Assembly: GCA_004335835.1 (NCBI GenBank)
Contig: RWJK01001948.1
Coordinates: 116,477 to 180,476, forward strand
From: Scenedesmus sp. ARA3
Taxonomy: Eukaryota; Chlorophyta; Chlorophyceae; Sphaeropleales; Scenedesmaceae
Length of the DNA: 64,000 nt
Direction: 5' to 3'
The notes beneath the pieces are model-generated. The model ran no database searches and was not told the DNA's origin. It was given only the letters and a program-made list of their open reading frames with translations. Position numbers and translations under genes: made by a program. This document shows, one piece after another, positions 792 to 63,937 of this stretch. How positions within the stretch are numbered: the stretch's first letter is position 1; every line of letters begins with the position of its first letter.

Positions 792-2681
792 GTTTGTCCT
801 CCCGCAACCGCAGTGCTGCCGCCCTCACCTCCTCAGCCAGGTAGTTGATGAGGATGTTGCCTGCTCATGCGTTTCACCTACATCATCATGCTATGCGTAA
901 GAACACTGCTGCTGCTGCCGCTGCTGCCCCCTCTCCCTCACCTCCTCAGCCAGGTAGTTGATGAGGATGTTTCCCCCCAGTGACCATCCCGCAGCAAACA
1001 GCAGGCACTGCGGGTAGCGCTGCAGCGCATGTGACACCACCTGCAGCGCAGCATACCGTGCAGCAAGAAGCAGATGGAACACACATCATGTCTTACATGT
1101 ACATCGGTTCATAAATGTGTGTGTGTGAACGCATCCGCACCACGACAGGCCGCCTCAACAGGCATGCAGAGGATGGTAAGGTTGAAACCAAAGTACTTCT
1201 CATAGCCAGCTCCATTGGTTTGCACGTTCTTTTCGGGCAGCTGTTGGAGCTTGTGTGAGAGGTGCAACCCAGTATGCATGGGAGGCCCTGCATAGCGCTG
1301 CTGCTAGATGCACGCATTGTTGAGCAGTGCACATGCAGCGAAAGGAGGCAGATGCATGTCTTTGCTGCTGGTCTCTGTCCAACTGCTGCAGCAGCTGCTG
1401 CCGCCGCCGCCGCTGCTGCTGCTGCTGCTGCTGCTGCTGCCGCACCCACCTGGCGCATGTCTTCCGTGTACGACGCCGAGTAGAACTGCGGCGTCAGCAC
1501 TGGGCTGTCGCTGGTGCCCCTGCTGTTGAACACCACTGCCCGCATGCCTGCGCAGCAAGAAATAACAAATTGATTGTTCAGTGGCTACTGCCGCTGCAGG
1601 TTGACAGAGACAGGGCTGTCGCTGGTGCCCCTGCAGTTGAACACCACCGCCCGCATGCCTGCGCGAGCACAGGAAAAAGCACACAATTTTGCATCTGACT
1701 GCAACGGCTGCAGGTTACAAAGAGAGCAGTCACTTGACTGGCTATGGCCACTCAGCCAAAAGGCAAGTAACTCAAGAAATATCACTCTTCGTGCCTGCGC
1801 CGCGCGCAGCCGCCACTGCCTGCTGGATGTATGACTCAGTGCTGCCATTGACTGGCCACAGCACAAGCGCTTGTCACAAGTAATTCATGTACTGCACATG
1901 TATTAGTTGACACACCTGCGCGCCGCGCTGCTGCCACTGCCTGCTGGATGTACGGCTCGGTGCTCCCGCTGGTGAGGCCAGGCAGGATGAGGAAGATGGG
2001 CGCGTCATGCGGCAGCCCAACCTGCAGGCCAGCAGCAGCAGCAGCAGCAGCAGCAGGTACAGGGAATTCTGACAGATGCGGAGCGTTGTGCAGCAAATCA
2101 ATCTGCACAAGATTTCTCAAAGGAGGAATAGCTTGCAGGCTCTCCTAGCAGCTGTGGCTGCACTGCAGCTGGCAGCCTTGCATGCAGGTCTGTGTGCTGA
2201 GCTGCAAGGCAGCAGCAAGGTGAGCATCAAGACTCAATCTTGACAGGTCGAGGCAGGTATGCACTGCATTGTCCTTCTGCATGCTGCTGCTGCTCCTGCT
2301 GCTGCTGCTGGCTGTAGCATGTGTGGCATCATCACTGATGCTCACCACTCCATCATCCTCTCCCTGCTCCCAGTCCAGTGCTACAGCCCCTCCACATTCT
2401 AACAGCAGTATCTCCCGCTTGTATGACACCCCTGGGCTTGGAGCCAGCTTTGCTCTTAGGATGGTCTCTACATGACCCTGCCCTAGTGTCAAAAACTTGC
2501 AGCTGTGGTATACTGCCTGCAGGCTAGGGCATCGTGAGAGAACTGCTGTGTTGAAGTCTGTGTTGGCGAAGAGCAGCTTCGGCCTGCTGCTCTTTCGCCA
2601 AGCATCCCACTGTGCGTACAGCCAGACAGCAATCGGCAGCAGGCCCAGGAGAGACACCAGGTAGATATTGGAGACATTCAT
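103..2681 (-). CDS. EMB8/ABHD-type alpha/beta hydrolase (3' part beyond window)
   Basis: Member of the alpha/beta hydrolase family of plant EMB8, animal ABHD1/3 and bacterial YheT (lipid ester hydrolases). Exons in gene order: 2681 to about 2290 (hydrophobic N-terminal anchor MNVSNIYLVSLLGLLPIAVW, then GQGHVETILRAK); 2021-1916 (IFLILPGLTSGS, oxyanion region); 1547-1450 (VVFNSRGTSDSPVLTPQFYS); 1040-942 (AAGWSLGGNILINYLAEE, with the GxSxG nucleophile Ser); 448-368 (AALSLGNPFDLVVS); 173-103 (GFNRIYDAIL). Splice phases join in frame from exon 2 to exon 4. The donor of exon 1 is uncertain (GT near 2265-2290). The C-terminus with the catalytic His lies left of base 1. The start ATG at 2681 is chosen because it directly precedes the membrane anchor; an in-frame ATG at 2732 is the alternative. 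Introns carry three exon-edge copies. Confidence 0.85.
702..790. repeat. (CTG)n tract, about 29 units
   Basis: Near-perfect CTG tract, sense CAG for the hydrolase gene, in the intron between the exons ending at 942 and starting at 448. A sense CTG tract (457-496) lies at the other end of the same intron, directly before the 3' splice site, so the transcript could pair CAG with CUG. Confidence 0.95.
822..1848 (-). repeat. Exon-edge echoes in the hydrolase gene (three)
   Basis: Bases 822-858 repeat the last part of the exon 942-1040 with its GTGAGG donor (37 bp, no mismatch seen). Bases 1613-1664 repeat the start of the exon 1450-1547 with its GCGCAG acceptor (about two mismatches). Bases 1795-1848 repeat the end of the exon 1916-2021, more diverged. 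Each copy lies in the intron beside the exon edge it copies. Confidence 0.85.
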
Positions 2682-4247
2682 GACCGTGTCAAACAATCGA
2701 CGGTAACTGCAGGTATGAAGCAGCCATATCAATGATTGCCCACTGGGAGCTGATCACGAACATTTAAAGTTTCGAGGCGCGGGGACAATTCTGCCGGTCG
2801 CAAACGACATTCAAATTCATCAAATATAACCAAACGGCACTGTTCACCAGGCTTTGCGCGTGTAACCAAACACTACATCGAGTAACTATAGTAACTCGAG
2901 AAGACTAGGCGCCAGCCTGTTTGCTACTGCCGATGCTCAACAATAAAACATTGATATTCTTTTAAACATGCACTATCAGTTACAGCATGCCTATTATAAC
3001 AGTTCTCCCATGGTGCCACGTGGCAGTACTGCTCATCCCAATGGTGAACTCATCTGGCTCCGCCTGGTTGACGGCAAGCCCTGCACACAAGAGGCAGGCT
3101 AAACAGAACTCACGTTGCGTTTTGTTCTGTTCATGGTACGCACATGTGGCACATGATAACAGCCTGCAGGGTGGCACTAGCGGCATTGGCAGCCGGGCTA
3201 CGTGTAGCAGCTACTACAGTGGCCAGCCTCTCATCTGTCACTGCAGTGACACCATGTATAGAGGACTATTTCATGTCTTTGCCCTCCTTTGATTCCGCTC
3301 CCTGCAAAGAGAGCATACGCACTTTCAACCTTCAACTTAAAGCAGTACAAGCTACGCACCGTGTGCCCTTGAAGGGCCCTTGAAGGCGGCCTTCAAGCAA
3401 TGTTGGACCAGGAGACTCCCGCCCAAAGTCTGCTGCAGCTGATGCTCCAAGGTTCGACTTGAATCCGATCATGTGGAACACGTAAGAGAATATTACACTG
3501 GGGCCGCCTAAGCCATGTAACATGAAAGTGTTAGGCATGTTTTTAAGAGGCTGACAGTCAGCCGGCTTCGTGCACAAAGCACCAAGCGCCAACAAGGTAG
3601 CTCCTGCGCACCGACAGCATATCTCAACAGAAATGTACACCTGAAATGCACACAGCTTGTCACAAACGTAATATTTTCCTGTCCTACACTGATGGTACAC
3701 CACACAAACAAAAGAAATAAATGTTGCATCGTCCAGCTAACTTAGGTACCTATGACATGTGCAAGCACGCAATTCTGCAGCCGCAACAGTGCCTAAGCCC
3801 CTGGCACAGTAAGTAATCTGCTTGCTATGCATTCACACAGATCAAGACCTGCACTTACAAAACAGAATCCTCTAGCCTGATGTGCTGCAACCCAGCACAT
3901 GCGACAATGAGCTTGAACCTGGAAGCATGCAAGCACATGTGCCGGGCTGCATGGCGTACTTGTGCTGCAGCCAGATCTTGGCAGTACCTCCCAAACGACA
4001 GCACCCGAGATCTTGACCACTCCCTGACACCACAAAAACACAACTCAGTTGCTGTCAAACAGCACACCGCAAGCTCAACATGCCAGATACCAGTCTACTG
4101 AAGTACCTGCTGTGGCGTTGCCCATCCTTCTTTTGTTCCACAAAAACACACCACGGCTGCTGCTGAACGCCTGCATAGTACAGTTGCGGTCTCAGAACCT
4201 TTCGAGGCCACACACCTATACTCTGTACCATTCCCCATCGGGCCACC
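2682..4247. other. Intergenic: hydrolase 5' flank and cytochrome b561 3' flank
   Basis: No conserved coding sequence recognised. It should hold the hydrolase promoter (right of 2681) and the 3' UTR of the cytochrome b561 gene. A minus-strand TGTAA (plus-strand TTACA) occurs at 3855-3859, about 390 bases past that gene's stop. Short open frames here have no recognisable domains. Confidence 0.6.
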
Positions 4248-12323: not shown

Positions 12324-12413
<90 letters not shown>

Positions 12414-20610: not shown

Positions 20611-23562
20611 CAGCTTGCGCCGCATCTGCAGGCACTGCTGCTGCAGGCAGTACTCGGACCCGGCTGCTGGCAACGGCCGCTAGCAGCAGCAGCAGATCAC
20701 AACGTGGCTGTACTGCATCTGCAGCATGGTTTTGATTGCTGTGGTTTGGATGAGGGTCAAGGCAGTACAATCAGCAGACTGCAGGCTGTACTGCCTCCTG
20801 ATGCTGTGATGCAGCTGCTGCAGGAGCCACTGCTGGCAGCAGTAGTGAGTGGGCTGCAGCAACAGCAGCAGCCTGACAGCAGCAAGCAGGAAGCAGCAGC
20901 AGCAGGGCAGTCGGGCGTGCGGCAGCAGCATGCAGACGTAACAGCAGCTGTAGCAGCCTTGATGGCGCACCCAGCCCTGCGCTGCTGCCTGCTCACTGAT
21001 GTGAAGCTGCTGTACAGCAGGCTAGCAGCAGCACCTGTGCAGCTGCTGGTAGAGCTGCTGGGCAGTACAGACAGGTCAGCCTTCTGGGCACTGCCTCAAA
21101 GACTGGCAGTACAATCCGTACTGCTGGGTGTACTGCTTGTCATGACGCCAGCAGGACAGGTGGCAGTACAACTGCCAGCAGCAGCAGCAGCAGCAGCAGG
21201 AGCAGCAGGGCAAAGCATGCAGGGGCAGCCTGGTGCAGCAATCGACTCAGCTGTGAAAGCCGAAGACGGCAGGCTGTCAAAGAGGCAACGCTTGATGAAT
21301 GGTGCAGCAGCAGCAGCAGCCCCAGCCAAATCTCACTCCAGCAGCAGCAGCAGCAGCAGGCAGCCGCAGCCCTCCTTCTGCCTTGCAGTGCCTGGCCTCT
21401 CCCCAGAAGTGCTGGCAGCCGGTGCTGCTGCTGTGGGCGCTAACTTGAGCCCTGCTGCTGTACCCTACCTGCTGGCTCAGCTAGAGCTGCTGGCAGGGCT
21501 TAGGGGCAGTTTAAACCCTGGGGTGCCTTGGCTGCTGCTGCGGCTGCTGCTTGACGAGCAGATGGTGATGGAGTGCCTGGAGGCAAAGTATGACAGCAGA
21601 AAGGATGGTGGTGGTGCTGCTGCTGCTGCTGCTGCTGCTGGGCTGGGTGGTGGCAAGGCGGGGGTGTCAGCAGGACCTCAAGGCTGGCTTGTGGTGAGTT
21701 TCATTTGTGCTGTAATGTAGCACAGAGCATTTGTCCATGCTTTAAGTACAGTTGGGTCCAGGCATTGACTACAGACGGTAAGAGCCACTGCTAGTGTATG
21801 TGGCTCTGTGCCGGCAGGAAGGAGTGCCGCGCATGGGTGCACATCTTGAATGCCTGTTTGGAACATGTTCAGGGCGTTTGGGCGCAAGTGAACACGATGA
21901 TTAGCCACCCTCTGCTGCTACATATGAGGTTGTTGCCGCAACACCGCCACTGCTGCTGCTGCTGCTGCTGCATTGATGCTGCTGCTGCTGCTGCTGCAGG
22001 CTTTGGAGCTTGCTGCGCCCCTGATGCCCGGTGGAGGCAGCAGCAGCAACGGCAAGCCTTCCGCTCGACCTACGCAGCAGCAGTCCTCAGCGGCAGCAGG
22101 CGCGGCTGCAGCAGCAGCCGTGCTGGTCACACACACAGAGAAGAACCTGGTTGACACGCTGCTGCTGTCAGTTGCTCGCTGCCCTGTCTCTGCGCTGGCT
22201 GCTGCTGAGCTGGTGGCTGGTGTAGCCCCGGGGGCTGCTGAGTACCTGCTGAAACGAGTGGACTGGCTGCTGCAGGTGAGAAAGCACATATTTTCACTTT
22301 GTGTGTAGAATGGATGCTGCGGGTGGGTGTCAAAGAACAACGTGAGGAGTGCTGCCGCTGTTGGGGTGCATGTGTGTGGGGAGCTGCTGCTGAGCTGGTG
22401 GCTGGCGTGGTGCCTGGTGCTGCGGAGTACCTGCTGAAGCGCGTAGACTGGTTGCTGCAGGTGAGAAATGATTGCTTGTATGCAGTTGGTCGACAATGCC
22501 TTGCTTTGCCTCGTGATGTTTGTGATGCCTTGCTGCTGCAGCGAGGGAGGGTGCGTTGGGCTGTGTCCAGTGACTTTTTTGCGAGTACGACCGCGGCCCA
22601 TAGCGGCAGGCGTGCAGCACTCCTGGGAACGTGCCCCTCCGCACTGTGATGATTCATGCTGTGTCCTCGGCCACGACATGCGCCCTGTGCTGCTGCTGCT
22701 GCTGCTGCTGCTGCCGCTGCCACTGCAGGACCGTGGGGGCGCCTGGCTGTCAGGTTACACCTCCCTCAGCCTACTGCTAAGCAAGCTGGAGCAGGCACAA
22801 GTAGTGGCAGCAGCAGAAGCCGCTGCTGCTGCTGCTGCTGCTGCTGCTGCCGCTGAACATGCAGCCGGCAAACAGTCAGCAGCAGCAGTGTCAGGTCCAG
22901 CTGTGGCTGCCCCTGCACCTTTTGCTGTTGAGGCAGCGCTGTCCGATGTGGTGCTGCTGCTGCTGGCGCGCTCGTCGTATGCCCGGCAGCGCGAGTTTGC
23001 TGCTGAGATGGTGCGGCAGCTGACCCGGCTTGTGGAGCTGCTGAAAAGGGCGCCTCCTCCTCCTGCTGCAGCAGGCAGTGCAGACGCGGCTGGTGTGGGT
23101 GGCGTCCAAGCAGCAGCAGCAGCAGCAGCAGAGGCGGGGTCAAAGGCAGCAGCTGCAAGCAGCAGGGCAGCATCACATGCAGGAGGAGCAGCTGACTCAG
23201 CCACCCCGCCACTTGCACAGCCAGCAACACCAGCAGTGCCGGCAGCAGCAGCAACAGCAGACCCAACGCGCCGCACGCCCCCACCGCCAGCAGCAGACTA
23301 CACAGGCCATCGCCGTACACCGCCGCCGCCAGCAGAGTTCAGCCGCCGCACGCCGCCGCCGCCACCAACAGATGCGGGCCGCCGCACCCCACCCCCACCA
23401 GGCGCCTTTGCAGATGCCGGCCGGCGCACACCGCCGCCGCCACATATGCATGCGGCAGTGCTTGCTGCCAGTGCTGCTGGGTGGGGCGGCAGCTTACCAA
23501 ATAGCCCAATGCTGCCTCCAGGGCAGCCGCCGCCACCACCACGGAGCGGCGATGCAATGCAT

Positions 23563-35684: not shown

Positions 35685-35841
35685 AGGCGCCCTCAGGTTT
35701 TATAGCCTGTGTAACCCGGTCAAATTTGGTCAAACGCGGACGCGCGTAAATAGCACAAACTTTGACCGCTTGCCAGCGCCTCATCAAGGCCAATTTTGCG
35801 TTGCGAGTTTACCAGGAGTTTAAGGGTATATGGGACATTGT

Positions 35842-37025: not shown

Positions 37026-38411
37026 GGCGAAACCAGCAGACAATCACCAGTGTTTAACACCATATGTTGCTGTCTGAGACCATTGTCCTGCTGCTCACCA
37101 ACCGCTTCAACCACTGCTGCCGCAGCACCGCAGGATCAAGCCCCAACCCAGCCACCAGCAGCAGGCAGCGACGGACACAAACAGCTATGTTTATTGTACA
37201 TGGTTATAGGTTACATGTTACATTTCCTGGTTCATGCTCACCGACAGCTCCGACCACTGCTGCTGCAGCACCCCAGCATCAAGCCCCAGATCTGCCACTA
37301 GCTGCGCCAGGTCACCACGCGGCCTCCCTTTCTGCGCTGCGAAGCTCTGCGCCAGTGTGAAGAACTCCTGAGGAGTTCCCTTGAAGTTCACACGGCTCTG
37401 GTGCACGTACATGACCTGCAGCGGCAGACAGGAAAGAACCGTGTGCATTGCTGCTGTTGCTGTCTTCATTGGAAGTCGCCTGCAGCAGGGTGCGTTAAAT
37501 GGGTGTGGCAAGGTGCTTGATGCAGTGCTGCTGCGGCGTGAAAAAGTGGTTGTTACTGCTGCTGCTGCTGCCGTCACTGCGCTGCTGCTGCCCTGCTGCT
37601 GCTGTTGCTGCTGCTGCTGCCGGCCCTCACCTGTGCTCTCCAGCAGGGGATGCCGACCTCTGATGGCGACTGACCGCTCAGCTTCAGCCAGCCAGCCTGC
37701 CATCAAGAAAATCCAACGTCAAGTAACAGTTTTGTCATTGCATGCACGGTGAGGCAGGCTCAGCAGCTCGGCACATTGTTTTGAAGGTGCATGGCAAGCA
37801 ACAGCGCACGGATACATGAGAAGGCACTAGAATTCCGCGATGCAGTTGCTGGTCTCACCTCCAGGGGATCCAAGCAAGCCACAGCGCGCAGCAAGCATGA
37901 GCAGCAGCAAGCAGCAGCAGCAGCAGCAGCAGCCAGCCTCACCTCCAGGGGGTCTAAGCAGGCCACAGCGCGCAGCAGCAGCGTCTTGCCTACACCGGAG
38001 GGGCCCCGCAGGAACCAGATCTCACCAGGGAACACCTGGCGGCAGCAGCAGCAGCAGCAAGTGAAGCATTGTGCTACTGGTGTGTTGAGAGGTGACAGCA
38101 GGTGCCAAGGCGCTGTGATGGAAGCTTGCTGCCGTGCCGTGCCGTGCCGTGCCTTTCGTCTCATTGCTGCGTCACAGCACGATCCGTGGTTGTTCTGTTG
38201 GTTAAGCACTGCATGATGCTCATAACAACAGGCCAACACGTGTATACTATCCCGGCATTAATGCTGCCGCTGGTATGCCTGCCTGAGCGTGGGTTGTTTC
38301 GACAAATGGTTGTAGTAGCACCCGTACCTCGAAGCTGATGTTGCTCCACAGCGTGCGCCCACCCACACTGCGCTTGAGCTGGTGCACCACCAGCAGCGGC
38401 GCGTCAGCCAT
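36189..38411 (-). CDS. STAR1/FetA-type ABC transporter ATP-binding subunit
   Basis: Stand-alone nucleotide-binding subunit resembling plant STAR1 (ABCI17) and bacterial FetA/YbbL, which pair with a separate membrane subunit in metal (Al, Fe) tolerance. Exons: 38411-38328 (MADAPLLVVHQLKRSVGGR), 38035-37943 (Walker A GPSGVGKT), 37696-37631, 37415-37242 (Q-loop YVHQSRV, ELS), 36856-36750 (signature GGQAQR, Walker B LLLLDEPTSACD), 36498-36189 (H-loop VLWVTHD, then polyGln tail, stop TAA). Every junction is phase-compatible; about 277 residues. No membrane partner (STAR2/FetB-like) is in the window. The polyGln/Ser tail of about 70 residues is unusual for the family. Exons 2 and 4 have downstream echoes. 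Confidence 0.88.
37090..37895 (-). repeat. Exon-edge echoes in the STAR1-like gene (two)
   Basis: Bases 37851-37895 repeat the end of the exon 37943-38035 (RAVACLDPLE plus GTGAG donor). Bases about 37090-37160 repeat the end of the exon 37242-37415 (GLGLD-x-x-VL-QQW) with a GGTGAGC donor. Both lie downstream of the real exon. Confidence 0.85.
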
Positions 38412-39418: not shown

Positions 39419-40425
39419 TCACGCCAGCACACCGCAGTCGTCGATGGCCACGCGCTGCCCGGGCCGGCCTGACCGGTCCACCGGCAGGTTCTGCAGCTTG
39501 TCCACAACGTCCAAGCCCTGCACCACTTTCCCGAAGACCACGTGCTTGCCATCCAGCCAGGGCGTGTCAGCGGTGGTGATGAAGAACCTGCAAGGAGTGA
39601 CAGCCAGTGCAGCAGAGCAGTGATGGCAGACTATTAGCAGCAAATCCTGCACGCGCAAAGACCACGTGCTTGCCGTGCAGCCAGGGCGTGTCAGCAGTGG
39701 TGATGAAGAACCTGAGGGGGGAGCGAGGAAGGGCCAGCGAGGAAGGAGGAGCACAGCGAAGCAGTGGTGTTCAGTTGACAACACTTCATTGTGATAAAGG
39801 CTGGCTTACAAGAAGACTATTATTATTATTAACACTTCATTGTGATAAAGCATGACGAATGCTGTAGGCTGATCCAGCACAACACAGGAGGTGTGAATTG
39901 CAACACATCAGTTGAAACTGTGCATTGGCATGGAAGCATAAGGATTGCGCCTGCAGCTGGCTTAGCAAGGAAACAGCACAGGCACCGATGGCTGCATGTT
40001 GCATGCTGCGACTCACTGGCTGCCATTGGTGTTGCGGCCTGCGTTGGCCATGGATACCACCCCGGGTGCATGCTTCACATTGAAGTTCTCATCTGCAGGG
40101 CGGGAAGTTCCCAGCACACACACAAAAACAGAAGTTCTTGGCTGCAGCTACAGGGGATTGGCGGTGCAAGTCCCCAAGGTCGTGCAGAATGCACACAGTG
40201 CAGATGTAAACTGCGCAAAAGGAAATTTGTTGCAACTGCAGCTTGTTGCTCAGAAAGACAGAGCCTCGCTGCCTGCTGGAAACACCTCAGAAAGACAGAG
40301 CCCCGCTGCCTACTGGCAAGTCACCCTAAAGGTCAGGGCATGGCACATGCGCGCACTTGCAGCTGCTCCTGCTGTGCTGCTCTACTGCTGCTGTGCTGGC
40401 AAAAGCAAATTGCATCACCGCAGCC

Positions 40426-40456: not shown

Positions 40457-42245
40457 CTGCTGCTGGGCCACCCACCCGCAAACTTGCGGCCGTAGATGGA
40501 GTAGCCGCCAGTGCCGTTGCCTCGCTCAAAGTCACCACCCTGCATGTACCGGCAGCAAACCACAGGGTTTGCTAGCAGTGAGACAGCTGAACCATCCTGC
40601 TGCTTGAACAGTCGTCCCTCATGATGCCATGTCTGCAACAGTGCCATGAGCCTGTGCCTGGGTTTGGGTACATGTTACACTGGTGTTCACTGTTGGCAAA
40701 GCTTACTGTGCCGAGGTGGTAATCAGCAGTAGAGTTGACAGCCACACACTCACATCCTAGCAACGTTCACAGCTGAACAGGCAAACACAGCTTTCACAGC
40801 TGCGCATCACCTGCGTGACAAAGCCCTTCATGCTGCAGTGAAGGGAAGCCCTTATGCAGCAAACAATCTCACAGTCACTTGCTACAGTCCCATAGAGATC
40901 AATAATTCATCTTCCCACCTGGATGACGAAGTCCTTGATGATGCGGCGGAAGGTGGCGCCCTTGTACCCGAAGCCCTTCTCACCACGTTCAACACTCCCT
41001 TAAATCGTTTTTGTGAACTTCACACCTAGCAGCAATAGTTCACAGTCATCTTCCCACCTGGATGACGAAGTCCTTGATGATGCGGTGGAAGGTGGCGCCC
41101 TTGTAGCCAAAGCCTTTCTCACCGGTTGCCAGTGCAGCAAAGTTGGCGGCAGTCTTGGGCGTGTCGTTGCCTGCAGGGATTAAAGCAAGATGGCAGTTCG
41201 GGTATCACGGTTGCTGCGACCAAGGATGAACAGTCACAGATGTTTTGCTAAGGCAGTGGAGCAAGCAGCCGTCCTTGGGGTCTCGCTGCCTGCACAGACA
41301 TGAGCTGCAAAGTTTCAGGTGTTGCATGTACAGACTGATCACGAATGCCTGCTCTGACAAAGCAGGTTCTGCTGCTACTGCTGCTGCTGTTGCTGTTGCT
41401 GCTGTCACTGCTGCTGCGTCTCACCAAACAGCCCGATCACACTGGGCCCTGCAGGCTGTCCGACCACACTCCCGGTATGACCTGCTGCTGCTGCTGCTGC
41501 TGGCCCCACTCTGTATGTCACTGCTGTTGCTGCTGCTGCTGCTGCTTCCACTCACCAAACAGCCCAATTACGATGCGTCCTGCAGGCTGGCCTCCAACGC
41601 TGACGTCAAAGAACACCTTCTGCGTCACCTCAGGGCCATCAGCAGCTAACACAGCCCTGCACAGCCAGCAAAGCAATGAAAAATGTGACAAGATCTGGTT
41701 AACCAGAACCGTTGTGATGTACTGTATGCTGCAGTTATGATTAACGTCGCTGCTTGCTGCTGTGCCGAGCTGTGCATGATTTCCTGGCGCTTGGAGCATT
41801 GGCGTGGGTTGACATGACTTACTGGCTCCTGCTGCTGCATTTCTGCATGCTCAACAGCACAGTAAGCACATCACGTTTACAAGAGCTGTTTGTTTACTAG
41901 ACACGGCATGGAAGCAGAAGCAGCACCACAGCAGCATGCAGCAGCAGCAGTGCCAGGGCTTTCATCAGCTGCTGTCGACACCACACGCGACAGGCATTCT
42001 GCCACGCACCCTGCAGTAGTTGCTGTCACTGCGGCAGCTGCTGCGGCAAGCAATGCGCGTTTGCCGAGCCCGGAAGCTGCTTCCACGTACTCCGTGGACG
42101 AGGCTGCAACTGCCTGCTCGGTCTGCTGCTGCTGTGCACGTGCGCGAACGCTGCAGCTACGAGAGATAACCGGTCGTGTTACTGCCTTGAAAGCGGTGTG
42201 GTGCGTCCGGCCTGCTGCCCGGGTGTTTGCTGCTTGCAGAGCCAT
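39419..42245 (-). CDS. Chloroplast cyclophilin (peptidyl-prolyl isomerase)
   Basis: Cyclophilin-type prolyl isomerase, probably in the chloroplast. Exons: 42245-42010 (transit peptide rich in Ala/Arg/Ser, then [18 protein letters not shown]), 41656-41556 ([27 protein letters not shown]), 41170-41058 ([20 protein letters not shown]), 40539-40476 ([17 protein letters not shown]), 40092-40017 ([18 protein letters not shown]), 39587-39419 ([20 protein letters not shown] ... DDCGVLA, stop). All phases join. Catalytic Arg and Phe (FHR...DF), Trp (PWLDG) and His (KHVVFG) are present. The hydrophobic stretch followed by VLAAD resembles a second, lumen-directing signal, so thylakoid lumen is likely but not proven. 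An ATG at 42281 is an alternative start. Three echoes lie in its introns. Confidence 0.93.
39655..41470 (-). repeat. Exon-edge echoes in the cyclophilin gene (three)
   Basis: 39655-39716 repeats the last exon's start ([18 protein letters not shown]) with its acceptor, upstream of the exon. 40916-40972 repeats the end of exon 41058-41170 with its CAGGTGGGAAG donor; the catalytic HR has become RR. About 41419-41470 partially repeats the end of exon 41556-41656 (GLFG plus GTGAG). Confidence 0.9.
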
Positions 42246-46308: not shown

Positions 46309-49300
46309 GTGGCGGCACGAGACAAAGTTCAGGACAGATTTGGCAGCTAGCAAGCAGCAGCAAAGACAGCCGAAGCAGCTTGCAGGCCTGCAGATATGAA
46401 CAACAGCTGACAGCTTGCTGGCGGCCCGATTACAGCTGGCAGCTCTAGTGTGCTTTAATTTGGGCCCCACCAGTCTTCAAGCCGGGGCACCCTCGTCCAG
46501 CTTGAACTGCTGTCAGTCGTTACATCCGAAGCAGTGTCTGTGCATGCACAGGAGGATGAGAACAAAAAGAAATTGTCTACAAGCGCGCCTGCCCACCTGT
46601 CTTCATGCCGCGGCTGCCCTCGTCCAGCTCCGACTTCTGTCAGTAAAGTGATATCAGAGCAGTGTCTTTGTTCACAGGATAACAAAAAAGATGGGTCGCG
46701 GCTGCCCACCTGTCTTCATGCCGCGGCCTCCCTCGTCCAGCTCAAACTCTGCGCCCTGGAACTCGTTGATGCACAGCGCCTCAAAGGAGTGCTTGATCAG
46801 GCTGCAGCGCGGCAGCCAGCGCAGCGCACTGCAGGGGCGGCAGCAGCAGCAGCAGCAGCAGCAGCAGCGGCAGCAGCAGGCAGCAAGGAGCAGCACAGAG
46901 GCGGCAGCATCAGGAGGAGGATGTGGGTATCATTGAACCCCTGAAGATGATCGACACCAGCATCACCCTTCCTCATGTTCTGCTGTGTTGTGGTATGTTG
47001 AGTAGTTTCATTGCAGAACACACAGCCGCACCTGGGAATGTTCTCGTTGTTGCAGTAGCAGCCGCCAAAGATGATCCACACCAGCATCACACTTCCCTCA
47101 TGTCACATGTCATGTTGACGTTACGTTACATAACATAACACATAGCCCCTCTCACCTGGGGATGTTCTCGCTGTTGCAGTAGTAGCCGCCAAAGATGATC
47201 CACACCAGCATTACTGCAGGGCCAATGGCCACTGCAGCGTCAGCGTTGGGGGCAGCAGCGCCTACTGACAGGCCCAGCGCTGCTGCTGTGAAGGACTCGA
47301 GCGTCAGGATGCCCAAGAAGCGAGCAAACCTGCGGCACATGGACGAACCAACAAATGTCGCAGATAACTGCAGCGCGCACAGGACACACAAACGGCAGAC
47401 AGGCCCAGCGCTGCTGCTGTGAAGGACTCCAGCGTCAGGATGCCCAGGAAGTGCGCAAACCTGCAGGCAATTGTGACATGTCCAACATCAGCGGGGTGGC
47501 GCAAGCAACGGGGACAGGAGTGGAGCTGCGAGCAGCTACTCTTCAGCAACCTGTGCAGCCGGCAGGCAGCAATGTGCTGTGTGTATTGCGCCCTAGGTTC
47601 AGGCCGCACATGCAGCCCACATAGGCAGTCGACTACAACGCAGCATCTCTGCTGCGAATCACAGAGACACACGCGCATAACTAAATCACTTTGTCACCCC
47701 AGATAAAAGTAGTTCCTCACCTCAAAGGCTTGGAATGAAGGCTGGTGAAGGGGTACACCACCACACCATCACCCAGCGAAGTATGAAGCACAGGAAACCC
47801 CAGCGATGACCTGAAGCCCTGGTAATTATGCCTCACCTCACAGGCTTGCGGTTGAGTCCAGAGAAGGGGTACACGACCACGCCAAACACCAGCGGGAAGA
47901 TGCAGCTCAGAAACCCCCAAAGACCTGGTCATCCAAATTTTTTTTGCCCAAAACAATAGAGCCTCACCTCACAGGCTTGGGGTTCAGTCCGGTGAAGGGG
48001 TAGACCACCACGCCAAACACCAGCGGGAAGACGCAGCTCACCGGCAGCTCAGCCAGCAGCTTGGCTGCAGGGGGAGGGGCAGCAGCAGCAGCAGCAGCGG
48101 AGAAGTCAGAAATGTTTAAATGCACAAGGTGCAACAATTGCCTGATGTAATTCCCAGCAGCAGTGCTGTGCCATGACCATCTAGAACATGATGCTGAAAG
48201 ATATGATACGCATACAGACATCAGATAGCGGAGGAGTGTTGCCGCCCCACCTGACAGGTATGGCAGCACGTTGTAGGCCTTGCGGGTGAGCTCTCGATTC
48301 AAGCTGATACATAGGTTCATGTCTGTGATCAATACAGCGTGAGAAAACGTGTTGTAACATAGCAACATTCACACCTGACAGGTATGGCAGCACGTTGTAG
48401 GCCTTGCGGGTGCGCTCCCTGTTCACAATGGCCCGCTCCTTGGGGAACACCGTGATGGTCTTCACCAGCGCAGACATGGCTGTGTTGATGGCAGCCACCT
48501 GCAAGAATGTCACATAAACTGTTGGACACGGTTGGACGTTGAAGGTAACACAGCGTCTGGGGCGGCCCGCTCCTTAAGGAACACAGTGATGGTCTTGTCT
48601 GCTTTTGTCCAGAGGACAGACGATGCTCCATGCCGCCTTGTTACGACCTGCTACTGTTATAGCGACGTGTTCTGTAACACCCCGCCCACCTGCAGCAGCC
48701 CCATCCTGTCCTGGATGTTGCTCTGCTTCTTCTGCATGCGCCAGAAGATGGCCCCGAAGATGACGGCGCTGCTCACGTTGCTGCTCAGCCGTGCCATGGC
48801 GGCGGCCTTGTCGCGCGTGATCTGGCGCCACGAGCGGCGCAGCAGCAGCCGGAACTGCCTGCAGGGATGTATGAAATACGGCCCGGCAGATGGCACAATA
48901 CAGTCAATTGTTGAGACGCTTTTGCAGGAACAGCAGTGCAGGTGAAGTATAAGTGTTGCATGCGAAATCAATGCACTCAAACAGTTTGCCGCCTCCTGCA
49001 CATCAGGAACGGTGGAAGGTTGCAGCACACGCCGCTGCTTGTTGCAATGCTAGCATGCATAAAGGATTTAAGACTTGGATTGTGAGCATTCAAAGGCTGT
49101 ACTTGTACTTCCGTGAACTCAAATCCATCCAAGATTCTGTGGAGTTTGCTCACCTCGCCCAGCCTGCCACGGGCCCAGAGTTGACTGATCCAAGGGCCAG
49201 CTCGCCACTGGGCGTGCGGCTCATGTGCTTGTGCGCTGCTGCAGCCTCGGCAGCAGCCTTGCCACCGGCGCTGGCGGCCCATGCATCAACCAGACCCTGG

Positions 49301-49700: not shown

Positions 49701-52341
49701 GCAGCAATTCAGCATGAAAGCTGCTGGCGACAAGCAGGCGCGTCAACACATCAACGTATCAACAAGGCAGCCAACCAGTGCTGTCACACAACCCGCCTGC
49801 TTCAAGTAAAGCAGCGCTTCCTCTGCCGGCCCCCTATAGATACAGCACGCCCCACTGAGCAGCAGCAGCTCATCAAAGTGGTCCGAGACGCTGCTGCAGC
49901 CCACATCATCAACAGGGTGAGCTGGCCTGCCTGCTGTACGCAAGGCAGTGCTTTGCGCGAACACCGCCAATCGCAACCACAACAATTTCATGCTGTAAAT
50001 TCAGGCTGCCAAACCACCAGCTCATAGCAGGCCCGTGCCTCCTCTGTGGGGCCGCTGTAGCAGCAGCAGGTCGTCAAAAAGCACACTGACAAGCTGCACC
50101 CCAGACCAGATAAAAACCCTGCACCAAACCCACCGGCTCAAAGTAGGGTAGCGTTTCGCCGGCCGGCCGCCAACGACAACAAAACCATGTGCAGCCAAGG
50201 CAACTCAGACGCATAATCAATGACAAACAACAGCCATGAAACCAGGCCCACCTGCTCAAAGTAGGGCAGCGCCTCCTCAGCCGGGCCGCTGTACACGCAG
50301 CGCCCCTCAGACAGCAGCAGCAGGTCGTCAAACAGGCCGAAGATGCTGCTGCGTGGCTGGTGGATGGAGCACACCACGGTGTGGCCGGCTGAGGCGAGCT
50401 GCTTGAGCGTGGCAACCACCTGCAGCCAGGCAGCATAACCATACACACATAGACATGCAAACAGGCAGGCACGCTGGTTGGCTGGTGGATGGAACAGACC
50501 ACTGTGTGGCCGGCTGAGGCGAGCTGCTTCAGCGTGGCAACCACCTGCAGAGGCAGTGGCGGCAGCAAGGAGGTCGAGCAGAGTGTTGGGGTTAGCGCAT
50601 GCATGCAATGACAATCACTGTCGCAAGTCACAAGCATTAAGCTATAAAAGCTACTGAGTCACATGTGCACGTGCACTGCATTTGTGACTGAATTTGCCTG
50701 AGTCATGTGCGCACGCTAGCTGCAGCTGAGCGTCCCTGAAGACCTCGTGTGATGTCGACGTATGTCCCGAAGCATGTGACAGCGCTACGCACCTTCTCCG
50801 CCTGGAAGCTGTCCCTGCCCATGGTGAGCGCATCCAACATCGGCAGGCTGAGGCTGCCATCCACCCATACACCTTTTCTAAACACGTCACATAACATACA
50901 ATATCTGGCTCACCTTCTCTGCCTGGAAGCTGTCCAGGCCTGTTGTGGGCTCGTCCAGGAAGAGCAGGCTGGGGCTGCTGATGAGATCAGCATGCTCTCA
51001 GCAAGCAAGCCAGAGGATCTGTAACGTGATACATGACATGTTACACATGCATGCGCACCTTCTCTGCCTGGAAGCTGTCCAGGCCTGTGGTGGCTTCATA
51101 AGGCAGGCTGGGGCGGCTCAGGAGCTTGCCGCCCTACTATGTCGTCTGTCATTCGAAACCTAATAGCACACGCACCTTCTCTGCCTGGAAGCTGTCCAGG
51201 CCTGTTGTGGGTTCATCCAGGAAGAGCAGGCTGGGGCTGCTGATGAGCTCGCAGCCAATGGCCAGCCGCTTCTTCTCACCGCCAGACAGCCCGCGGATCT
51301 TCTCATCTCCCACACGCGTGTCACGGGACTGCACAGCAGATAAGCAGCAGCAGAAAGCACATTCAGCAGTTAGCAGGGACGTTACAGCTTGAAGCCGATG
51401 GCCAGCTGCTGCTTCTTGCTACCCAACGGGTTGCAGATCTTCTCATCTCCCACACGCGTGTCACGGGACTGCAGGCAGGCACGTGATCATCAGCAATTTT
51501 AAAGGTCAGATTGGCCAGACGGAACGCGGATCTCTTGTCGCCGACACGCATGTCACGAGACTGCAGGCAGGCACGCAGTCGTCAGCATCATAACATGAGG
51601 TTTGCCAGACAGCCCCAGGATATGCTCACCACCCCCTATCCTCCACCTCCTAGCAGCACGCACCTTTGCCAAGCCCAGCACTGAGATGAGGTTGTCCACG
51701 TAGCTCTGCTTGGATGCCTCAGGCAGCCCTGGAGCCATCTGCAGCTGGGCAGCCATGGTCAGCGTCTCAGCCACGCTGAGCATGCTGTAGAAGTTGTCAG
51801 ACTGCTCCACGTAGGCCTGGCGGTGGTTGGCCTCCGTTGATTGGACGCCGTTCACGTACAGCTCGCCTGCAGCAACAAAAAAGGGATGTCTTCAGCACAC
51901 ATGCGCAGCACGCCTGCACATTGTGGTGGTTGGCCTCCATCGATTGGACGCCGTTCACATACAGCTCGCCTGCGGCATCAAGCGGCATCACACATGCACT
52001 CTATCAGGGACTTGTGGCTGTTTGGGTTTGGTGGGGTTGTTGCGCTGCTCCACATAGGCCTGGCGGTGGTTGGCATCTGTTGACTGGAACCGTTGACGTA
52101 CAGCTCGCTTGCAGCAGCAAACCACTTCAACGATGCACTTTGTGTGGGATTTAAGGTTGACTGCTCCAGGTAGGCCTGCCTGTGGTTTGCCACTGTTGAC
52201 AGCACGCTGTTGACAGAACATGAACCACCCAGAGAATCGCGCACCTGTGAGCCTCATGCCGGTGTTGGCGGGCACGTGGCTGGCCAGGCTGTTGAGCAGT
52301 GTGGTCTTGCCGCTGCCGCTGGGGCCCATCAGCGCCAGTAG

Positions 52342-52393
<52 letters not shown>

Positions 52394-56177: not shown

Positions 56178-56210
<33 letters not shown>

Positions 56211-58622
56211 GTTTGCTGACGGTGGCAGCCGTCCACAGCCGAACTGCTGAGGGGACGAGAGTCCGGCTGAACAGCACTGTGACCGTTGCAGGGAAGCAGG
56301 CAGCAGCAGCTTGCCTCTTCGACAGAAACAAATGCACCCCTGGGTGCTGCCCCGATGTGTGCTGTACGCTGACTGATGCTCTGACAAACTGCACGGAGCG
56401 CTTGACCAAGCTATTCAGCGCAGACGCTGTGCTAGCTGCTGCTGTTGAGCTACTGAGAACTGCCTGACTGCCCAGTACTGCTGCAATAGCGTGTGCAAGC
56501 AGCTGTGCTGCTGACACCATGCTGAACGCGTCCGCTGCTGGTGTGCGCAGGAAGCAGTCAATGAGGGCTGTGTAGGCCTCAGGGTGCGCTGCTGCTAGTG
56601 CAAGCAGGCGGCCGTCAGGCAAAACATCATCCAAAGCTGCGGTGCAACATTGAAGTAAGATTCAGTGACAACAATGAGTGACGATGAGTGCCGTACGCAC
56701 TCACTGAGTACGAGATGACAAGAAACATAGGTCAAAAAGGTCTTGGTCAAGATCACCATCTGGATCAAGCAAGCAGCACCTGATGCAGCGTTCAAGTGAA
56801 CGGTGCACTTGCAGGAAACGCAGCAAACGCAGCACGCGTAGGACAGTCCTGCAGGCCTTGAGCTGGCCGTTTGCGGCAGATTGGTAATGCAGGGGATGCG
56901 CCCTCCACGCAGCAAATGCAGCAAATGCAGCAAATGCAGCAAATGCAGTTACCAGTGACCAAAGTAGGGCACAAGCCCACCCATAAAGGAGCCAGACCAG
57001 GCTCATGGGGTCCAGCAAGAATTCAAATAAACTTGCAAAGAAAGGGGTGACAGATACCGATGCATACCCATGTGTCCATTGTTTGCAGGCTGCAGCAGCA
57101 GCACTTACCTGGACTGCGGTCCTGCTCCGGAGCCAAGCCAGCACAGCAGCCTCTGAGGACCAGCAACTGCTCAGTCAAACCCCTCCAGCCAGATGCCAGC
57201 TCAGCAAGTGGCTTGCCAGGGTGCGACAGCTGCAGCTGCTGCAGTGGTGCCGCCAGCGCCTGCAGCAGCTGCAGCCCAGCCTGCTGCAGCACCTCAGGCG
57301 GCAGGCAGCTGGCGCGTGAGGCTTGCAGGTAGCCGTCTATCTGCAGCTGCAGCACCTGGTGAGTGATCAGCAGTACATCTTCTGCATCATCGTGCAGCAA
57401 CACGCTGCTGCTGCTGCTGCTGCCGCTGCTGGTGCAGCTGGCTTGCTGCGCGCTGCCGCTGCACTGCGCCTGCAGCCAGCAGCTGCAGCTCCAGCGTTAG
57501 CCGAACAGCAGCTGCCGACACTGCTGCCAGTTCACCAACTGCCCCTTTAGCAGCACCATCTGTATGGTACACGAGGCACCGCAGGCTGATGGTTTGTGCC
57601 TGCAGGTAGCACAGCATCTGCGCCAGTCCCAGCTGCAGTGTGTCCGCCGTTATGCTACTGCCGCCTGCTTCGTGGCTTATGAGCTTCTGTACTGCTGCTT
57701 CCAAGTAGGCCTGGCCACCTGGCAGCAGCTGCAGCATGTCAGGATGCTGGTGGAAGGCGGGGATGGGCAGCAGGTCTGCACGGTGCTGCTGCCTGGGCCC
57801 AGCGGAAGCATCTTGCTGAGCCTGCACAGCGCTGCTGCTGCTGCCATGGGGCGCTGCTGGCAGTCCCTGCTGCTGCTGCTGCCACCTGTGAGCCACATGG
57901 GCCGCATGCAGCTGTGCAGTGCGCGCAGCCAGCAGCTGCAGCAGGAGCTCTGACACAGCAGGATCAGCCAGCAGCTCGGCTGCAGGTTGCGGTGGCAGCA
58001 GATCCGCTGCAGTTCCCGCCAGCTGCCTGTCCAGCAGCTTGGCCAGCTCGTAGATCAGCAGCCCTGCAACGCCCTGCACCCGGAACACCGCCTCATGAGG
58101 GCTGTGCGCGTCAGTGCTGCTGCTGCTGCTGCTGCTGCTGCTGAATGTGACGCTGACGAATGTAGCAGGCAGCAGTGAGCTGCATGCCTGTAGATGCTGC
58201 AGCAGCGGCAGCACTGCCGGCAGTATGGTGCGCAGCATGGCGGGGTTGACGCATGCCATGAAATGCCACATGGCCAGCACCGATTGCACCACGTCAACGG
58301 CACCCAACAACACGCGCCAGTCAGCTGTCCCTTGCTGCGGTTGCTGCGTTGCCTGCCTGATCATCCCCTGTAAAACTGATGGCATTGCTTGCAACAGGCC
58401 TGGGAGTGTCAACACCAGACCATGACCACCACGACCAGCAGCAGCAGCAGCAGCAGTAGCAGCAGCAGCAGAAGCAGCAGATGCAGCCAGAGGGATGGTA
58501 ACAAGCCCGTGAACAAACACGCGGGCAAAGCCATCAGCTGCATGTGTGGCAAGTTGCTCAAGCACAGCATGTTGGAAAATCAGGAGTTGCTTCACGCAGC
58601 TGCATGCTCTATGTTTGTCCAT
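55381..58622 (-). CDS. Second MYND zinc-finger protein
   Basis: Chlorophyte-type MYND protein, role unknown. Last exon 56636-55381 ends with one MYND finger (CNNPSCESFAGVSE, then CKSCAGCRCRYCSEACQ and DWKRHKAAC) and stop. The previous segment, about 57403-57109, ends in a good GTAAGT donor. The upstream body is one long frame, 58622 to about 57400, helical and Ala/Leu/Gln-rich. Between the body and the 57403 segment the frame changes inside a CAG tract (57400-57430), so a small intron, an indel or an assembly slip is needed. The ATG at 58622 is the first in this exon, but an acceptor (TTGCAG, 58634-58629) just before it suggests further 5' exons. A dispersed repeat sits in the intron at 56969-57012, next to four ATTTGCTGC units (56909-56948). 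Confidence 0.75.
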
Positions 58623-58768: not shown

Positions 58769-58772
58769 CCGC

Positions 58773-58825
<53 letters not shown>
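58769..58825. repeat. (CCG)n(CTG)n triplet tract
   Basis: About 57 bases of CCG then CTG repeats between the two opposed MYND loci. Confidence 0.9.
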
Positions 58826-58826
<1 letters not shown>

Positions 58827-58934
58827 AACCCAAGCCTGCTATGCCACGCGCTGTCAAAGTGAGGCACTGCTGGCTTTGCAGGAACAGCCCTGTCAGTGAG
58901 CGCTTGCACTCTTTGCTTGGCGCTGTCAGCTGGT

Positions 58935-60522: not shown

Positions 60523-61692
60523 TCAGGGCTTGGGCGCGATCATGTTCTCTGGCCGCACCCACTGGTCAAACTCCTCGCTGGTCAACAAGCCTAGCTGCAT
60601 GGCTGCCTGCTTCAGCGTGGTGCCCTCCTTGTGGGCCTTCTTGGCTGCTGCTGCTGCGTTGTCGTAGCCGATCTTGGGGTTGAGCGCCGTGACCAGCATC
60701 AGCGACTCGTGCAGCAGCTGGTCGATGCGGCGTTTGTTGGCCCTGCGTAAGGTGGGTTTTGAAAAAAATGACAATGTGTTTGAAATTGAAAAATGACAGT
60801 GTTGAAAGAACGAGCATCAGCGACTCATGCAGCAGCTGGTCAATGCGGCGCTTGTTGGCCCTGCGAGGGATTGAATAGTGATGGCAGGTAATGGAGTGCA
60901 TGAGTAAGCTGCAGGGTAAGAGCGTGCAAGCTGCAGCATGGGCTGCTTGCGCTTGCGATGATGTTGCTTCCTCGGCGCGCCAGCACAATGTGGTGCAATG
61001 TGATCAGTATCACACAACATGAAGGAAACACTGTGTCACAAAATGGTGTACGGGTGGGTCAAGCGAGGCAGGGTTCCTGCCTCCTTAGCTGTGCAGCAGC
61101 TGCCGCAGTGCCACAGCAGGCAGAGCAGCAGGCCGCGCCACCCTGCAGGTGTTGCTGCTGCTCTTGGCGTCGGAAAATACCAAACTCAGCTGGGGCTGCA
61201 CGGTTTGGGGAACGATAGACGCCGTGAAGGCTGAACGCGACTTACAACCAGCTGCCGACACCAACAACATGACACACAAAAAATGACAAGAAATCAACAC
61301 AACAACTGACAATGTAACATGTGGCACTCACTGGATGCCGACGACGCAGTTGGCAGCGAATGAGCCCGCTGCATCTCCCAGCAGCCGCGTTGACTGCAGC
61401 AGTGATGCCACCATCATGGGCTTGAACACGTTGAGCTCAAAGTGACCCAAGCTGCCGGCAATGCTGAGGCCCGTGTGGTTGCCCATGACCTGTAGCAGCA
61501 GCAGCAGCAACAGCAGCGGCAGCAGCAGCGGCGGCAGCAGCAGCAGCAGCAAAGGTTGGGTTAAAGGCAGTGTTCACACGGCTGCTGCTAATCAATGCCA
61601 CCACCATGGGCTTGAAACGCCGAGCTCAAAGTGGCCAAGGCTGCCCGCAATGCTGATGCCTGTGTGGTTGCCCATGACCTGCAGAGTAAACC

Positions 61693-61726
<34 letters not shown>

Positions 61727-63123
61727 GGTATGGTGAACGGCAGCGTTCACACGGCTGCTGCTAATCAATGCCACCATCATGGGCTTGAACACGTTGAGCT
61801 CAAAGTGGCCAAGGCTGCCCGCAATGCTGATGCCTGTGTGGTTGCCCATGACCTGTAGCGGCAGCAGCAGCGGCAGCAGCAGCATAATGGCGATTGGCCA
61901 TAATTGCGCTGCTGCTGCCAAGTACATGCTATGCCACCATCACAGCTTTCACACATGGAAATAACAACCGTCACCATTGCTGCCGGCAAACTCACACCTG
62001 TGTGGTTGCGCATGAGCTGCGCGATAAGGTGTTGGCAGCAGCCATTGTGCACGCGTGACAGCAGCAACAGTATGGTGAATGGTGACTGCAAGACTGCAGC
62101 CGCCGACAGCGGTCGCGGCTTATGATAGTGATAGGAGGAATCTGACACTAGGCTGCTTTTCAGGCATAATCCTACCACACTACCAGTGTGCAGCAGCACT
62201 CAGACGTGGTGATGCATGCAGAAACCATATGCAGCTGTGTTGTGCAGCTGGTTCACATTTCACCATCCCTTATATGAGGGATGGTGAAATGATGTGATGC
62301 GTGGCTTGTTCATTGGCGCCACCTCCATATACGGAGGTGGCGCCAATGAACAAGCCACACAACACAGCCAGGTGGCTTCAAATTCAAACTCAAACTCCGA
62401 GCATCACGTGCTACTGTTGCCAGCAGAAGCACCAGCACTACAGCCTGCCGCCCAGGTCAAAATGCATGTGTGTGTTTCGAAAAAAACTGCTGAGGCTGTT
62501 GCTGGAGGAACCTGCTGAGGCTGTTGCTGCGCACTTGTAGCTGCTACCAGTAACCTATGTATGTATCCAGCAGCTGCCAAGATTGGCTTTACACAGGCAG
62601 CATTGCATTGACCGCCTGAATTCCTGCAGTATCATGCACAGCATTGCTCACATGTACAGCCCTACACAGCTGCTCTGCTAAGCACGTATGGAACCAGGGA
62701 GAAATGCAGACCACGCACCTGTGCCGCTACCGTGGTGATGGCTTCGCACTGCGTGGGGTTGACCTTGCCTGACGCTGCCGTCAAGAACCAGAATATGCAA
62801 AAGCTGCTGATCATCTTCCGTAGCTCAAACATGGTTGCAGTCAAACATGCCCAAAAGCCATGCAGGGGACCACTGCCAACCCCTGTTCAGCCCTGACACC
62901 TGAAACCTTGCAGCGATATTTGAGAAACGCACCTGTGCCGCCACCATGGTGATGGCCTCGCACTGTGTGGGGTTGACCTTGCCGGGCATGATGCTGCTGC
63001 CAGGCTCATTCTCCGGCAGCAGCAGCTCACCCAGGCCACACCTGCAGCAGCAGCAGCAGCAGCAGCAGCTCAGCCCACCTGCAGCAGCAGCAGCAGCAGC
63101 AGCAGCTCACCCAGGCCACACCT

Positions 63124-63158
<35 letters not shown>

Positions 63159-63518
63159 TCAGCCCGCACCTGCAGCAGCAGCAGCAGCAGCAGCAGCTCA
63201 CCCAGGCCACACCTGCAGCAGCAGCAGCAGCAGCAGCGGCAGCGGCGTGACGTCAAGCAGCATATCAGAGCAAAGGCCAGCAGCATCCAGGTGTGCGGCA
63301 GCAAGTGACCGCGGTGCAGGATGCAGTGCAGCAGCAGCAACAAAACCCAGCACCCACCTTGGCCCTGAGCCAAGCAGCCGGATGTCATTGCCGACCTTCA
63401 TCAGTGACACCGCCAGCGTGTTGAGCGCTCCGCTGGCCTCAACCAGGCTGTCATGTGCAGCCAGTGCTTCAAACTTGTTAGGCGCCGTCACAAACGGCAG
63501 GCCCGTGTCCGCTGCCAC
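60523..63518 (-). CDS. FUM: Fumarate hydratase, class II (5' part beyond window)
   Basis: Catalyses fumarate to malate hydration in the TCA cycle, normally mitochondrial. Exons seen: 63518-63358 ([35 protein letters not shown]), 63041-62933 ([16 protein letters not shown] then [20 protein letters not shown], the family signature and catalytic Ser loop), 61489-61332 ([39 protein letters not shown]), 60742-60523 ([48 protein letters not shown], stop TGA). Phases join. These cover about the C-terminal half; N-terminal exons lie right of 64000. Every intron and the 3' flank contain exon-edge echoes. Confidence 0.96.
60811..62015 (-). repeat. Fumarase echoes, last two exons
   Basis: 60811-60864 copies the start of the last exon with its GCAG acceptor. 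About 61595-61682 and 61765-61857 are long copies of the start of exon 61332-61489 ([18 protein letters not shown]) with acceptors; together with the exon they form a tandem array of about 175-190 bp units that also includes intron sequence (ACACGGCTGCTGCTAATCAA). 61985-62015 is a short further copy. Confidence 0.92.
62257..62290. repeat. Perfect inverted repeat, 14-bp arms
   Basis: Arms 62257-62270 and 62277-62290 (AGGGATGGTGAAAT on the right) flank the 6-base loop TATATG. The pair extends by one more base each side. Confidence 0.97.
62301..62358. repeat. Perfect inverted repeat, 26-bp arms
   Basis: Arms 62301-62326 and 62333-62358 are exact reverse complements around the 6-base loop ATATAC. 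It lies 10 bases after the first hairpin, in a fumarase intron. No coding content. Confidence 0.98.
62700..62770 (-). repeat. Echo of the fumarase signature exon end
   Basis: Copies the end of exon 62933-63041 ([17 protein letters not shown]) with the GTGCGT donor. Frame intact, few changes, about 200 bp downstream of the real exon end. Confidence 0.9.
63025..63240. repeat. CAG-interrupted tandem array at a fumarase acceptor
   Basis: CTCACCCAGGCCACACCTGC plus CAG runs occurs three times (from about 63027, 63107, 63198), alternating with a CTCAGCCC-type unit (two copies). The copy at 63041 is the real exon start; the others are echoes of its first bases with the acceptor, separated by CAG tracts. 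Confidence 0.9.
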
Positions 63519-63554
63519 CTGCACACACCAGAAAGCATCAACAACGAGATGAGA

Positions 63555-63937
63555 GTGCCGCGGCATCCACCAGGCTGTCATGAGCAGCCAGTGCCCCAAA
63601 CTTGTTTGGAGCTGTTACACACAGAAGGCCGGTGTCTGCTGCCACCTGCATGCAGTACAGAGCAGAAGCAAGGACATTGAACGTGCAGCTGACCTCCACC
63701 AAGCTGTCATGAGCAGCCAGCGCTTCAAACTTGTTGGGGGCTGTGACAAATGGCAGGCCGGTGTCTGCTGCCACCTATATTTCAGGAAGATAACAAAGAG
63801 GTCTAAGGTGCAACACTGGGTACAACAGAAAACATTTCAAAGGCCTTCACTTGGCTGCTGGCTTCCATCATAAGCAGCCAGTGCTTCGAAGTGGTTGGAG
63901 GCCGTTGCAAATGGCAGGCCAGTGTCTGCTGCCACCT
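63555..63937 (-). repeat. Three echoes of a fumarase exon start
   Basis: Copies of the start of exon 63358-63518 ([27 protein letters not shown]) lie at about 63555-63647, 63690-63776 and 63865-63937, most with an AG acceptor (the copy at 63776 is altered). Spacing is about 128, 129 and 161 bp. Confidence 0.93.

Follow-up and report, generated by a model that had tools for sequence, protein, structure and literature searches.

Introns of Scenedesmus sp. ARA3 hold many decayed copies of neighbouring exon edges, apparently from repeated local duplications masked by splicing

The described process closest to the pattern reported here is small tandem duplication by break repair. According to PMC8355091, such duplications arise when complementary 3' overhangs are filled in and the ends are joined; the introduction of that paper speaks of insertions under 100 bp, and natural insertions in rice are cited there from Vaughn and Bennetzen 2014. 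The AGGT model (Rogers), as presented in PMC4974935, derives new introns from exon duplication, with ATP2A1 and a potato RdRp as its cases. Introners, the subject of PMC9860276, add sequence to many introns. For T. obliquus, PMC5966456 gives an average intron length of 462 bp and a coding share of 15.7%.

We analysed a window of 64,000 bases from Scenedesmus sp. ARA3 (C1523:116477-180476; the assembly comprises 87.3 Mb in 1567 contigs) and found that the introns of this alga contain many decayed copies of the neighbouring exon edge, hereafter echoes. Their source is apparently repeated local DNA duplication, about 125 bases long, masked from the protein by splicing. Like the break-repair duplications of PMC8355091, echoes are direct and local, with adjacent copies and no mobile element; unlike them, they show an offset mostly of 85-165 bases with a floor, a high density and, in more than half of cases, no intron homology past the splice core. 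With the AGGT model they share tandem duplication carrying splice signals, and the potato case duplicates intron-exon structure too. However, here existing introns lengthen, no new intron was seen, and the fumarase echo does not abut the next exon. Echoes resemble introners in that sequence is added to many introns, but they have no shared element, each copies its own exon, and their spacers seldom match other parts of the sample. The same sequence did not recur in many unrelated introns: 25 of 65 spacers had any match in about 330 kb, of which 15 lay near their own locus and one was the same place found twice (L008). A long target-site duplication around an inserted element was also considered and rejected, the spacers forming no family in the sample. 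Among the titles and abstract openings listed in searches of open-licence PMC papers, none described such echoes. The phenomenon is a dense form of a known mutation type plus one odd feature, a sharp stop at the splice junction. Border duplications are dense enough in this genome for the study of intron lengthening, and of how a cell tolerates copies of real splice sites nearby.

To count the echoes, we used a 307 kb sample consisting of the window, 200 kb of contig C1274, 20 kb elsewhere on the contig of the window, 3.4 kb at the contig end and a pair of 10 kb stretches, about 10 kb of the total being N; eight 3 kb loci and the N-filled stretch L029 were excluded from the pair search. Exons were predicted with a model that had learned from long open frames and used splice matrices set by hand; it gave 427 exons (median 129 bases) and introns with a median of 288 bases. 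This model recovers the fumarase exons yet labels some echoes as exons, so all pair counts are approximate. The sample yielded 153 unique pairs of exon edge and echo (165 rows before reciprocals were removed), some of them echo-echo pairs and some involving predicted micro-exons that are themselves echoes. An echo was present at 110 of 796 predicted splice sites, a single exon edge carried up to five, and identity ranged from about 70 to 100%. Among 195 repeat pairs no more than 700 bases apart, 92 joined an exon edge to an intron and 55 had both copies partly in predicted exons, the rest being intron-only (29), intergenic (11) or exon-interior to intron (8). The window itself held 42 unique edge pairs touching 33 edges predicted by the self-trained model; an earlier note had counted more than 30 copies. 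Self-BLAST of the window gave 71 pairs within 3 kb once simple repeats were filtered, with significance taken from the BLAST E-value only; about 25 of the 71 were satellite arrays at 27-31 kb. Two adjoining satellite-like arrays occupy 27220-30862; in the first, GTACTCG-rich units measure about 166-185 bases, and in the second a 181-base unit recurs about 5.5 times.

Self-BLAST, inspected alignments and a reading of the fumarase gene agreed that exon-edge echoes are real, and they were found outside the window as well. We inspected 15 window pairs (two in fumarase) and 13 pairs from C1274. These, with the three-frame reading of fumarase, placed copies of exon starts with their acceptor upstream and copies of exon ends with their donor downstream. 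This is the direction that the earlier note had described, and it rests on the inspected alignments and fumarase, as the edge finder took intron-side echoes only. That note had named seven affected genes. Edge pairs were found in six, namely the alpha/beta hydrolase (EMB8-like), the ABC ATPase (STAR1-like), cyclophilin, the ABC half-transporter (ABCG7), fumarase and a predicted gene at 12-25 kb whose Med12 match was below threshold; the seventh, a 'lumen protein', could not be placed, since the piece taken for it (42936-43680) had neither a Pfam match nor an edge pair. Representative features are listed in Table 1, where the cyclophilin echo at 39658..39714 stands outside the 153 as the model makes its exon terminal. 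Open frames for MYND fingers (Pfam PF01753) lie on the minus strand at 31115-33511 and 55384-56661.

Table 1 Exon edges and their echoes in the window (positions are those of the window; offsets in bases).
Feature	Position	Strand	Offset	Remarks
Fumarase exon, acceptor at 63518	63358..63518	-		Source of three upstream echoes
Echo of fumarase exon start (63358..63518)	63578..63645	-	127	
Echo of fumarase exon start (63358..63518)	63677..63776	-	256	84% identical
Echo of fumarase exon start (63358..63518)	63868..63940	-	417	82% identical
Fumarase exon VMGN, acceptor at 61489	61332..61489	-		
Echo of fumarase exon VMGN	61602..61678	-	189	
Echo of fumarase exon VMGN	61768..61884	-	363	91% identical
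Fumarase exon end with donor	62927..62983	-		
Downstream echo of fumarase exon end (62927..62983)	62713..62769	-	214	With donor core; 93% identical
Fumarase exon start with acceptor	60692..60747	-		
Upstream echo of fumarase exon start (60692..60747)	60810..60865	-	118	4 differences, all at third codon positions
Alpha/beta hydrolase (EMB8-like) exon end, donor at 942	935..974	-		
Echo of hydrolase exon end (935..974)	822..861	-	113	97.5% identical
Echo of hydrolase exon start (1499-1557)	1610..1669	-	111	
Echo of hydrolase exon end (1915-1967)	1794..1846	-	121	Flank homologous
Echo of ABC ATPase (STAR1-like) exon end (37938-37977)	37854..37893	-	84	
Echo of cyclophilin exon start (39534-39590)	39658..39714	-	124	
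Echo of cyclophilin exon end (41046-41123)	40907..40984	-	139	95% identical
Echo of ABC transporter exon end (48372-48425)	48248..48301	-	124	
Echo of ABC transporter exon start (50348-50433)	50473..50556	-	125	
Echo of ABC transporter exon end (51173-51250)	50911..50988	-	262	One of several in that intron
Echo of exon end (22198-22283), plus-strand predicted gene	22383..22468	+	185	Both copies exonic in the model

Fumarase was compared with an annotated protein. Assembled from the window and its flank, with a few residues at exon joints set by hand, it was identical to T. obliquus protein P0001 across the shared exons, a false micro-exon of the model aside; this identity marks the genome as Tetradesmus, from either T. 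obliquus itself or one of its very close relatives. Each echoed segment is present once in the T. obliquus annotated fumarase, without an echo. Reading the gene in three frames revealed three degraded exon-start copies upstream of a real one, each after CAG or TAG, as well as VMGNHTG exon-start copies upstream of their real start and one exon-end copy with its donor downstream. The AGGT route of intron gain, which the earlier note had raised, was not supported, because the fumarase echoes, checked against the T. obliquus protein, run into more intron and not into the next exon; fumarase is the one gene compared with a protein. Within this gene, an intron at 62256-62366 contains short near-perfect palindromes (inverted self-matches), and a CTG-repeat block at 63041-63290 carries several copies of the first bases of the next exon (GCAG/GTGTGGCCTGGGTGAGCTG), apparently echoes mixed with trinucleotide expansion.

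The distance between copies was confined. Edge pairs had a minimum offset of 84, with medians of 130.5 and 127 in the two flank classes defined below (pairs at 200 or less), and 90 of the 153 unique pairs lay at 200 bases or less, their copies being adjacent as a short local tandem duplication requires. The minimum was 86 in the 31 intron-only pairs and 88 in the 13 intergenic pairs; this similarity across edge, intron-only and intergenic classes speaks for an origin in the mutation process rather than in selection on splicing. Copy and spacer length were anticorrelated (-0.62, 56 pairs, median offset 124), the relation to be expected when the offset itself is primary. The floor is strong, yet not absolute. 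Exceptions at 66 and 75 occurred among pairs with an exon, a cheap-gap search gave offsets of 56-80, with introns contributing 56 and 62 and intergenic pairs 74, and Tandem Repeats Finder reported a few arrays of period 15-28 in the window. Such a characteristic length, near 125 bases, is indicative of a definite intermediate of repair or replication. Since offsets of 85-165 are near short-read lengths, and near-identical tandem copies are scarce among the listed pairs, we also considered an assembly artefact in which overlapping contig ends or haplotypes were joined end to end. We give this only the slimmest chance: decay is continuous, up to five echoes share an edge, runs of N lie outside the listed pairs, and for two regions no allelic copy appeared among the scored matches. 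Haplotypes placed serially in the assembly were not supported for these two regions, a second copy being absent among the same matches.

We judge it about an even call that the echoes survive from many separate tandem duplications, each local, whose characteristic unit is about 85-165 bases. The source would likely be a form of break repair in which long complementary overhangs are filled in and the ends joined, as for small tandem duplications in other organisms; the copies at hand are old, with eroded junctions. When such a unit straddles one splice site, the intact outer junction would stay in use and the extra piece of exon would turn intronic; with the outer junction still used, the event would be nearly neutral and hence kept, and units inside exons would presumably be purged by selection. 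The exon half would remain recognisable for longer because one of its two copies is protected exon, and the intron halves would drift and gain indels on both sides. Observations in support of tandem duplication are the offset and its floor, the occurrence of pairs away from exon edges, the neutral look of the echoes, the echo-free T. obliquus fumarase and the homologous intron halves of about 40% of pairs. Against it, 92 of 153 intron flanks fall below 0.5 identity despite nearly equal exon blocks, and the mutation level of the echoes predicts plentiful intron-only pairs, of which 17 were found; the exceptions to the length floor, the third-position divergence of pairs otherwise unchanged and the lack of clustered differences also count against it.

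Those 17 bear on whether exon edges are favoured. At offsets of 80-200 there were 88 edge pairs against 17 intron-only pairs, and 88 against 19 in a gap-tolerant search. Random 125-base units placed in the same gene models would be intron-only in 43% of cases, cross one edge in about 31% (24% with a detectable intron part) and be exon-only in 22%. When the intron half alone had to pass the detection score, 18 edge pairs faced 17 intron-only pairs, with about 12.6 and 22.4 expected. Much of the raw edge excess may therefore be visibility, because exon halves decay more slowly. The excess over random geometry thus stands in the raw counts and is modest once the intron half must be detectable; the large raw figure is only partly accounted for.

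The sharp stop at the splice junction is the odd feature. Identity of the intron flank at positions 7-20 was at least 0.5 in 61 of 153 pairs and lower in 92, the cut of 0.5 being our choice on a histogram that is broad and not cleanly two-peaked. In the low-flank group, mean identity was 0.26-0.33 from position 7 on (null about 0.27), so that similarity ends within about 6 bases of the junction, and yet exon block identity was 0.90/0.83 in these pairs against 0.92/0.86 in the others. Over all 165 rows, flank identity at positions 7-10 was 0.52 against a null of 0.27, which, taking about 0.85 for homologous flanks, puts their share at about 43%. In a gapped comparison 6 of 47 spacers exceeded the 95th percentile of the null, and in-register spacer homology reached z=3.5 (41 pairs). 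The hydrolase echo at 1610..1669, for example, has a flank below 0.5 without gaps that is homologous with gaps (73% in register). Candidates for the low-flank pairs are fast intron turnover, exon-to-echo gene conversion and splice-bounded copying; differences showed no clustering of the kind that marks gene conversion (63 pairs).

In splice-bounded copying, exon edges would be copied to the end of the splice core and set into the adjoining intron at a distance of about 125 bases, template switching at co-transcriptional structures or AG/G motifs being one conceivable route. We regard this as doubtful, though deserving of weight. The stop at the splice core in more than half of pairs fits it, as do the raw count of 88 edge to 17 intron-only pairs and the rarity of exon-interior copies (8 of 195). 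Similarly, AG/GT is present at 60 of 80 echo-bearing donors against 231 of 398 predicted donors, and AG/G at 60 of 73 echo-bearing acceptors against 258 of 398 (p about 0.0006 for each), although this enrichment may reflect false splice sites in the model background. However, about 40% of pairs include homologous intron, the offset is common to intron-only and intergenic pairs, and some flanks without ungapped homology align with gaps. A stronger version, in which Tetradesmus has a mutational process that reproduces exon edges exactly as far as the splice-core end and places them about 125 bases into the adjacent intron, so that the sites of splicing guide a DNA change, seems to us unlikely. 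If the stop at the splice core were original and not a product of decay, splicing would be linked to DNA mutation.

Under local tandem duplication, an echo should decay neutrally beside a constrained exon. The third-position share of exon-echo differences fell with identity, from 0.93 (10 rows at 95% or more) through 0.73, 0.67 and 0.55 to 0.53 across 167 edge rows, in which some copies are counted twice; in counts, 13 of 14 differences at 95% or more, 138 of 189 at 90-95% and 119 of 223 below 75%. This drop rejects coding-constrained echoes, an impression gained by eye from nearly all-synonymous differences, and is nearly explained by a neutral echo beside a constrained exon, a constant-offset residue aside. 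Alignable introns were 14-17% diverged, about twice the 6-7% of the echo, as predicted for that arrangement; the introns could be aligned over a long stretch in 54 rows, some arrays contributing several of them, and there intron divergence was 15.5% against 5.9% at first and second and 19.1% at third exon positions.

The residue concerns age. Across bins of rising first- and second-position divergence (96 pairs), third-position divergence was 0.158, 0.163, 0.190, 0.235, 0.258 and 0.256, and in the 21 pairs without any first- or second-position change it was still about 0.16, a value at odds with a simple clock that accumulates changes over uniform ages. In a uniform-age simulation none of seven proportional clocks fitted the third-position values and a constant offset near 0.15 did; neither reproduced the share of the zero bin (22% observed, 6-12% simulated). 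The claim that the copies differ in age thus fits their span of identity, but the range of third-position divergence is narrow (0.16 to 0.26). Either most echoes share a similar, not very young age, or the copies start from slightly different alleles. In the allelic reading, the copies bring together different alleles from a highly diverse population, or recombination later put other alleles in place of the exon side; this would give a constant third-position offset and unrelated introns. A near-constant third-position excess was indeed seen, about 0.15 between exon and echo and 0.156 in 19 echo-echo pairs. Nevertheless, we consider this reading very unlikely, given that no second copy of a 2.7 kb fumarase region or a 3.7 kb C1274 region was present among the 40 matches scored of 536 and 517 candidates, and that the excess is no higher with unrelated flanks (0.134 against 0.132; 0.119 against 0.166 in another split).

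Finally, we asked how well the copied splice sites are kept. The core was retained by 72 of 85 donor echoes and by 68 of 80 acceptor echoes, and the total of 140 of 165 is the level predicted by a decay of about 7% per base, so the echoes look neutral and retention showed no sign of maintenance among the 165. Mean matrix scores were 4.55 for echo and 5.81 for real donors, and 3.36 and 4.81 for acceptors; 47 of 85 donor echoes and 34 of 80 acceptor echoes scored at least as high as their own real site. Offsets divisible by 3 were slightly depleted (39 of 153, p=0.04; 25 of 108, p=0.025), a hint that occasional use of an echo may be costly. Such a depletion, as though occasional use mattered, would suit echoes that act as alternative or decoy splice units under selection, which we hold to be highly improbable: splice cores decay no differently from the remainder of the echo, no echo is present in the annotated fumarase of T. 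obliquus, and indels per echo substitution (about 0.12) lie within the intron range of 0.11-0.19. The idea that an echo forms a mini-exon and brings along a second splice site was dropped, the signal being weak (0.29 against 0.21 and 0.14 against 0.06). Longer repeats were also noted. A direct repeat joins 35433-35687 to 36191-36462 (273 columns, offset 758 bases, 81% identical), and a dispersed repeat of about 228 bases at C1274:197438-197670 (L028:7438-7670) recurs at 84-98% identity on at least 39 other contigs among the scored candidates.
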